Assembly (NCBI GenBank): GCA_019115725.1
Contig: DXCY01000121.1
Location: forward strand, 1-40,988
DNA from: Candidatus Luteimonas excrementigallinarum
GTDB lineage: Bacteria > Pseudomonadota > Gammaproteobacteria > Xanthomonadales > Xanthomonadaceae
Reading direction: 5' to 3'
DNA: 40,988 bases
Numbering within the stretch: the first letter of the stretch is position 1; each line of letters opens with the position of its first letter. The notes below the pieces were generated by a model that had not been told where the DNA came from, ran no database searches, and worked only from the letters and a program-made list of their open reading frames with translations. A program made the position numbers and the translations under genes. Positions 19,136-20,735 of the stretch are shown here, piece by piece.

Positions 19136-19149
19136 TTGATGCAGATCAT
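19136..19149 (+). promoter_or_regulatory. FNR/Anr/Dnr-type box TTGATGCAGATCAT
   Basis: 13 of 14 positions fit TTGAT-N4-ATCAA (N4 unconstrained); lies 57 bp upstream of the 19207 start. Confidence 0.7.
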
Positions 19150-19206
19150 GGCCTCACTACCGCCCCGCGGGCATGCTGGCCACATTCCGATCTTCTGGTA
19201 TTGCCC

Positions 19207-19452
19207 ATGACCGTCCAGCTGGACCTGCGCCATCTGCCGGCGCCCGAGCCCATGGAGCGCATCCTTGATGCCGTCGAAGCGCTCTGCCCCGGTGACTCCA
19301 TCGAAGCCCTGACCCCGTTCTGGCCCGCCCCGCTGCTGCCGCTCCTGGAGATGCAGGGCTGCGCCTGGCGCCGCGAACCCAGCCCGGCCGGGCATGCCCG
19401 GGTGGTCATCTTCCTGCGCGAAGACGCGGAGCGCTTCTCCGTCGCCGCATGA
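19207..19452 (+). CDS. DUF2249 domain protein
   Basis: LDLRHLPAPEPMERILDAVEALCPGDSIEALTPFWPAPLLPLLEMQG typical DUF2249 pattern. Confidence 0.85.
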   Translation: MTVQLDLRHLPAPEPMERILDAVEALCPGDSIEALTPFWPAPLLPLLEMQGCAWRREPSPAGHARVVIFLREDAERFSVAA

Positions 19453-20735
19453 GCGGCCTGGACTTCGCCAAGGCCCCACCGCCGCATCGCCCGCTGCGCT
19501 GGCTGCTGACGGCCTCCGTCTGGGGCATGGTGGCCGGCGCGTTCCTGTTGGCCCATGGCGAGACCACGCTGGCCAGCCGCTGGGCCCCGCACACCGTGGT
19601 GCTGGTGCACCTGTTCACCCTGGGCGTGCTGGGCAACGCCATGCTCGGCAGCCTGCTGCAGTTCCTGCCGGTGGCCGCCGCCACGCCGATGCCGCTGGCG
19701 CGCTCGACCTCCTGGCTGCACGCTGCGTTCAACCTGGGCCTGGCGGTGTTCGCCGTTTCCATGATCCACATGCACCGCACCGGCCTGGGCGTGGCCAGCG
19801 TGCTGCTGGCGGGGCCGATTCTTGCCTTTGCCGGCGCCGCGCTGCCCGGCCTGCTGAAGCGCGGCGGCCAGCAGGTACTGCGCTCAGGAATCGCCATGGC
19901 GGTGATCGCACTGGCTGTGACCGCGGTGGCCGGCGCCGTGCTGGTGGCCATCCTGCGCGGCGATGCGCCGCTGCCGCTGGAATCGATCACCGATGCCCAT
20001 GCCACCGTTGGCGTGCTGGGCGGCGTACTGGGATTGATGGCCGCCGTCGGCAGCGTCACCCTGCCGATGTTCCAGGGCACCCGGCACGTACCGGAGCGCT
20101 GGCTCGGCGGATGGGTGGCGTTTACCGTGATCTCGCTGGCGGTAGGCACAACGCTGCGTCTCTACTCCGGCCTGCAGCAGCCGCTGGTGGTGTCCGCCCT
20201 GCTGCCGGCGCTGCTGTTTGTCGGCATCTCGCTGTGGCTGCCGCTGCGGCCCCTGTACCGGCGCAACCCGACCCTGGTGTGGACCTGGCGCATGGGCACC
20301 CTGGCCGTCGGCGTGGCCTGCGTGATCACCCTGGCCGGCACCCTTTCTCCGCTCTCAACCCGCAGCGTCCTGCTGGCCGGCACCCTGGTGATCGCCATCG
20401 GCCTGCCGATGATGCTCACCGGCATGATGCTGGAAATCATCGGCTTCCTGGCCTGGATCGGCCTGCGCCGCGACTGCCCGCGCGGCATGCGCGTGCCCGG
20501 CGTCGGCACCCTGGTGCCAGACCGGGACAAGTGGATTGTGCTTGCGCTGCAGCTCATCGCCGCCGCCGCGCTCATCGGTGCCGCACTGACACCCACACTG
20601 CTGGCCCGCCCGGCCGGGGCGATGGTGCTGCTGGCGTGGGCGGCAGTACTGGCCACCCAGCTGCGCGGCATGGGCCGGGCGCGGAAGTTCCGGCGCGAGA
20701 ATTTTCCCGGTGAAAACGCGGCTCCCGGCGCCTGA
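19449..20735 (+). CDS. Polytopic membrane protein resembling heme-copper oxidase subunit I / NnrS-type fold
   Basis: Many TM segments; APHTVVLVHLFTLGVLGNAMLGSLLQFLPV resembles HLLTLG..MLGALYQLLPV; 4-nt overlap with the DUF2249 gene. Confidence 0.7.
   Translation: MSGLDFAKAPPPHRPLRWLLTASVWGMVAGAFLLAHGETTLASRWAPHTVVLVHLFTLGVLGNAMLGSLLQFLPVAAATPMPLARSTSWLHAAFNLGLAVFAVSMIHMHRTGLGVASVLLAGPILAFAGAALPGLLKRGGQQVLRSGIAMAVIALAVTAVAGAVLVAILRGDAPLPLESITDAHATVGVLGGVLGLMAAVGSVTLPMFQGTRHVPERWLGGWVAFTVISLAVGTTLRLYSGLQQPLVVSALLPALLFVGISLWLPLRPLYRRNPTLVWTWRMGTLAVGVACVITLAGTLSPLSTRSVLLAGTLVIAIGLPMMLTGMMLEIIGFLAWIGLRRDCPRGMRVPGVGTLVPDRDKWIVLALQLIAAAALIGAALTPTLLARPAGAMVLLAWAAVLATQLRGMGRARKFRRENFPGENAAPGA

Follow-up and report, generated by a model that had tools for sequence, protein, structure and literature searches.

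What do a small DUF2249 gene and the membrane gene that overlaps it do, and what turns this pair on? The question is raised by a locus in Candidatus Luteimonas excrementigallinarum, at which the two genes are preceded by a sequence resembling the binding sites of FNR-family regulators. The window (the whole 41-kb stretch of DNA that was analyzed) is contig C42 of a 2.57-Mb MAG, which consists of 305 contigs, is 89% complete, and has its relatives among the Lysobacteraceae.

The gene pair and its relatives

The DUF2249 gene occupies positions 19207 to 19452 of the plus strand and encodes a protein of 81 aa. The membrane gene (19449 to 20735, plus strand; 428 aa) starts with an ATG at 19449, giving the overlap of 4 nt that the original prediction had described; its product also carries the sequence singled out there, HLFTLGVLGNAMLG..LLQFLPV. 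The gene downstream of the pair in the window encodes a pseudouridine synthase. The order YggS-PdxY-DUF2249-membrane gene is also present in a same-genus genome and in two Luteimonas records.

An earlier single-sequence query of genome contigs gave no relative; an alignment query recovered them, yielding 80 loci in a scan of named genomes, mainly from Pseudoxanthomonas, Lysobacter, Luteimonas, Stenotrophomonas, Rhodanobacter, Dyella, Thermomonas, and Arenimonas. The membrane protein is present in 38 of the 199 family genomes searched. A DUF2249 gene lies immediately upstream of the membrane gene, on the same strand, in 80 of 81 loci from Lysobacteraceae and Rhodanobacteraceae (window included), and overlapping frames, sharing 4, 20 or 1 nt, were seen in 61 of 73 loci. 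In a phylum-wide search, all of the stronger gammaproteobacterial matches from other families (L180-L187), among the matches listed, adjoin a DUF2249 gene; in the weaker ones (L188-L206), again among the matches listed, a DUF2249 gene is not directly adjoining. Next to two of these weaker matches, L203 and L205, a gene for a hemerythrin-DUF2249 fusion runs divergently (in L205, its DUF2249 part scores below the cut-off), and a third, L190, has a hemerythrin gene nearby. A hemerythrin gene is also found upstream of the pair in L181, L182, L184, L185, and L067. The two genes can be lost together as well: in a same-genus sibling (L209), a single deletion of about 1.26 kb has removed the pair after the PdxY gene, and the scar retains the start of the DUF2249 gene and the end of the membrane gene.

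The upstream box and the predicted promoter

The 87-bp gap between the PdxY-like kinase gene and the DUF2249 gene contains the FNR/DNR-type box TTGATGCAGATCAT (19136 to 19149, plus strand), a predicted activator site that differs from TTGATN4ATCAA at a single position. Its center, at 19142.5, lies 64.5 bp upstream of the DUF2249 ATG (19207), in agreement with the nearly full FNR-family site about 64 bp before this start that had been proposed. It is the sole one-mismatch site of the 41-kb window. When up to two mismatches are allowed, 14 sites are found, compared with 2.8 expected from shuffles, and membership in this looser class by itself proves little.

To follow the box among relatives, genes were called at the 80 loci and the DNA upstream of DUF2249 was scanned for TTGAYN4RTCAA. 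Seventeen loci, in which the preceding gene is <40 bp from DUF2249, were set apart as operon-internal, and L069, whose upstream region is cut by a contig end, was left out of the count, leaving 62 loci in which DUF2249 is the first gene of a unit. Of these 62, 38 have a box that departs from the pattern at one position or none, and 7 others have a box with two mismatches; the loci are related, a few of them near-identical, and these counts are thus of non-independent events. According to shuffling, the number expected to match their own score, summed over the 38 box loci, is 0.27. When the upstream gene is divergent, the box is nearly universal (at most one mismatch in 18 of 19 loci, at most two in 19 of 19). 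Conservation upstream of orthologues, the check that had been suggested for this box, therefore came out in its favor, and the geometry is that of a class II site, as described below. The remaining 17 of the 62 loci have upstream space and no box at up to two mismatches. Most of these belong to longer clusters in which SirB2, NnrS or FNR genes come first, and read-through from the upstream genes is plausible there.

Additional conserved positions become visible when 39 upstream regions are anchored on the box closest to DUF2249. The GGC immediately behind the box in the window (19150 to 19152, plus strand) includes a near-invariant GC (offsets 15 and 16 from the box start; G in 38/39 and C in 38/39). 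Farther downstream, within an otherwise variable region, a T is present at offset 41 in 35 of the 39. In the window this T belongs to the hexamer CATGCT (19172 to 19177, plus strand), a putative -10 element that is a weak match to TATAAT. Taking the conserved T as the last base of a -10 element places the predicted start of transcription at 19184 (plus strand), 41.5 bp from the box center. In class II FNR promoters, the box is centered at -41.5 relative to the start site. Consequently, the spacing of box and conserved T would correspond to a class II FNR arrangement. A σ70 scan found no promoter, a result that is expected if the promoter depends on an activator.

A candidate regulator and its sites in the genome

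The genome itself encodes an FNR-type protein, the gene for which lies between hemN and qNorB, a quinol NO reductase gene, on the minus strand of contig C9 (L155). Close to its N-terminus is CSTCAFSQAC, a candidate set of Fe-S cysteines, and its recognition helix, ETVSRVLRRF, is of the E-SR type. It scores 202.7 bits against the NCBIfam Fnr cut-off of 228, and is thus FNR-type while below the threshold of the model. As far as can be judged from its bases, the box fits FNR or DNR alike and does not separate the two.

In a search of the 2.57-Mb genome with TTGAYN4RTCAW, 16 matches were obtained in forward and 13 in reverse orientation, together marking 21 distinct places; a reversed control pattern gave 0 and 2. 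Given this rarity and the conservation among orthologues, a chance match was ruled out as an explanation of the box. By the gene calls made here, 12 of the 21 places are intergenic, among them those at qNorB, at hemN, at the pair in the window, and at the only other DUF2249 gene, together with those at the genes for OmpW, a TtrB-like protein, DUF2946, and a cytochrome c peroxidase.

Several FNR-type sites merit separate description. The second DUF2249 gene (L167, contig C112, 743-1036, minus strand) has its FNR box at 1092-1105, 55 nt upstream, and its product is of another type, with a DHDP motif and the C-terminal tail STCCGGCT. In a same-genus genome that is without the pair (L211), an FNR-type box, CTGACGCAGGTCAA, is kept directly after the PdxY gene; it now precedes an unrelated frame of ~83 aa, whose end, STCCGGCGG, resembles that tail. 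TTGATTGCAATCAA, a perfect FNR palindrome, is separated by 58 nt from the gene for a 51-aa peptide that has a single helix and fits no known family (L163, contig C55, 1889-2041, minus strand). The TtrB-like iron-sulfur protein (L172, contig C221, 1234-2022, minus strand) has an FNR box 53 nt upstream of its gene, which suggests another anaerobic respiration.

The DUF2249 protein

The original assignment of this protein to DUF2249 is upheld by a score of 49.3 bits against PF10006, for which the Pfam gathering cut-off is 29.5; a weak match to Pfam TusA is also present. The AlphaFold model (pLDDT 89) has a TusA/SirA-like fold, and its best matches in Foldseek are the SirA-like structure 3hz7 and the YeeD part of YeeE-YeeD (best E 2.5e-3, probability 1.00). 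The catalytic cysteine of the TusA CPxP motif is not found: the window protein has APEP at this place, and a cysteine directly before PEP occurs in only about 2 of 73 members. Also lacking are the DHDP and RHxxIF motifs carried by the other DUF2249 protein of the genome (L167); TPxxPxPLL stands in their place.

The membrane protein

Searches of Pfam and NCBIfam with the membrane protein found no family match, and a search of solved structures with its sequence returned nothing useful. An AlphaFold model built from an alignment of 61 homologues (pLDDT 95, pTM 0.93) has 12 transmembrane (TM) helices, and Foldseek matches it to CcoN of the cbb3 oxidase, to NO reductase (NOR), and to cytochrome oxidase subunit I with probabilities of ~1.00, TM-scores of ~0.5-0.68, and ~11% identity. 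The predicted model and the alignments reveal the features of the heme-copper-oxidase-homology (HCOH) type: the fold of the heme-copper oxidases (HCOs), three repeat units, and two conserved histidines.

These histidines, H54 in TM2 (codon 19608 to 19610, plus strand) and H184 in TM6 (codon 19998 to 20000, plus strand), are the only ones that are invariant among the 61 homologues, and they are also kept in distant homologues of 22-28% identity. Each is located 7 residues into its helix, at the same depth, on the predicted periplasmic side. Together with the predicted fold, they suggest that the protein binds heme, with H54 as a predicted ligand and H184 as the predicted second one. In a single profile comparison, the part of TM2 near H54 was aligned to the HVH helix of CcoN at an E of 0.011 and a low HHalign probability; this alignment is only suggestive.

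Catalytic subunits of HCOs need six histidines, one in TM2, one in TM6, and a pair in each of TM7 and TM10. In the alignments and the model, the TM7 and TM10 ligands are absent from the membrane protein, which thus keeps two of the six. With only these left, the protein is not an oxidase or NO reductase: there is no CuB or high-spin heme site, and such activity was ruled out. Membership in NnrS was also ruled out, since there is no PF05940 match and no profile similarity. Of the earlier description as an oxidase/NnrS/NorB-like membrane protein, the HCO fold thus stands, while NnrS (by sequence) and NorB-like chemistry do not.

Genomic neighborhoods

In relatives, the neighbors of the pair include genes for NirK, qNorB, NnrS, SirB2, FNR, HemN, UbiT, NadA, and NadB, as well as U32-family genes, which we read as UbiU and UbiV and which, like UbiT, count as anaerobic ubiquinone genes; CcoN/CcoO and SCO1 also lie beside the pair in many loci. 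At loci of Rhodanobacter and Pseudoxanthomonas, a gene for a DGC-domain protein (cluster c17, L033-L067; for example L048:7582-7926, minus strand) is often found between the pair and UbiT. Among the 199 family genomes, qNor is present in 32 of 38 pair carriers versus 71 of 161 others (Fisher p 5e-6, uncorrected for phylogeny), and UbiT in 28 of 38 versus 18 of 161 (p 4e-14, likewise uncorrected). The pair is a marker of anaerobic respiration in Xanthomonadales, among them Rhodanobacter and Pseudoxanthomonas, bacteria of importance for the turnover of N2O and NO. The suggestion that it stands apart from any denitrification cluster applies to the window and its closest siblings, but not to most relatives, in which the pair lies inside denitrification or anaerobic-respiration clusters.

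The genome of the window contains qNor and a separate NnrS; NirK and UbiT were not found in this 89% complete MAG. Judging by this gene content, the organism may reduce NO without full denitrification, or the two genes may be missing through incompleteness of the genome.

Function of the pair

Conservation and geometry of the box, the predicted fold, the two histidines, the near-obligate pairing, and the genomic company, all computed here, are best explained by an FNR-activated bicistronic operon that encodes an accessory or protective single-heme membrane unit of anaerobic nitrogen-oxide respiration; we give this reading a probability of about 0.6. FNR would activate the operon at low oxygen. 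The membrane protein would be a three-unit protein of the HCO fold that has lost the ligands of CuB and of the high-spin heme, and H54 and H184, near the predicted periplasmic face, would most likely hold a single heme b by bis-His ligation. Its partner in the cytoplasm, coupled to it through translation, would be the DUF2249 protein, which has a predicted TusA-like fold and no cysteine for sulfur transfer, and the two would presumably interact physically. The pair most likely serves NO tolerance, or the handling of heme or electrons, beside NO reductase; in its working it would resemble NnrS while lying outside the NnrS sequence family.

Other explanations account for parts of the same evidence. 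The presence of the pair beside qNorB, CcoN/CcoO, HemN, SCO1, and NirK in many loci would suit an assembly or maturation factor that inserts heme or metal into qNor, the cbb3 oxidase or another respiratory enzyme, and a membrane protein without a remaining catalytic site, joined to a small soluble partner, would make a reasonable chaperone. However, 6 of the 38 pair carriers have no qNor match, and qNor is present in 71 genomes that lack the pair. Since each occurs without the other, the pair is not needed for qNor in general (a required part of NO reductase was ruled out by the same 71 genomes), and we regard a role in maturation as unlikely. The DUF2249 model fits YeeD in the YeeE-YeeD complex nearly as well as it fits SirA, and a TusA-like gene next to a membrane gene is the architecture of that system. 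A transporter with a docking partner in the style of YeeE-YeeD (TsuA-TsuB), for nitrogen-oxide, iron or sulfur species, is nonetheless improbable: almost every member has another residue in place of the TusA cysteine, the fold of the membrane protein resembles that of HCOs rather than that of YeeE, and two invariant histidines at the depth of oxidase ligands suggest heme.

A role of the membrane protein as a terminal oxidase or NO reductase in its own right might be supposed from its HCO fold and its co-occurrence with NO reductase genes, but this is hardly credible for a protein that has no TM7 histidine pair, no histidine ligand in TM10, and only H54 and H184 invariant. A more speculative proposal, which we hold to be rather doubtful, is that DUF2249 and the HCOH protein make up a distinct kind of membrane heme unit that responds to O2/NO, with a degenerate oxidase that would act as sensor, relay or channel. 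As a part of this same doubtful proposal, the TusA-like cytoplasmic partner would be joined in some lineages by hemerythrin or a hemerythrin-DUF2249 fusion. If true, such a unit would add another functional class to the oxidases and NO reductases of the HCO superfamily. The single-heme accessory or protective unit remains our preferred reading.

Comparison with known systems

The original prediction had considered this module under-described; it is less so than was thought, as DUF2249/COG4309 has been tied in print to norB and to the HCO superfamily, and the kind of system is already known. COG4309 (DUF2249) was placed with norB in NnrR and NsrR regulons by Rodionov et al. 2005, and is co-transcribed with norB in several proteobacteria (PMC1274295). 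DUF2249 genes are induced in denitrifying Haloferax/haloarchaea, in a report that cites Pei et al. 2014 for an association of DUF2249 with the HCO superfamily (PMC11218638), and the DUF2249 proteins DrpA and DrpB function in Thermus nitrate respiration (PMC6282519).

Like the membrane protein, NnrS (PF05940) is polytopic and belongs to NO/denitrification regulons, and it often neighbors the pair; no sequence or profile similarity was detected between the two, and NnrS is encoded separately in the same genome. The window DUF2249 protein shares with DrpA and the canonical DUF2249 proteins of Thermus and Haloferax a domain above the cut-off and a nitrate/NO context, but has TPxxPxPLL instead of DHDP and RHxxIF. 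With TusA/SirA and YeeD it has in common the fold, the weak Pfam TusA match, and a gene beside a membrane gene, but not the CPxP cysteine. The membrane protein in turn has the fold of CcoN (cbb3) and NorB (Foldseek probability 1.00), whereas four of the six ligand positions are missing and identity is ~11%.

A further likeness is to the three-unit HCOH proteins, which were reportedly the subject of Pei et al. 2014 (Protein Sci 23:1220). The predicted class II FNR control, the UbiT association, the two-histidine limit, and the near-obligate pairing were worked out here and may overlap with that work, as may the link to hemerythrin and the hemerythrin-DUF2249 fusion and the joint loss of the pair. 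The HCOH proteins, as reported, and the membrane protein are alike in having 12 TM helices, the HCO fold, two conserved histidines, and a denitrification context.
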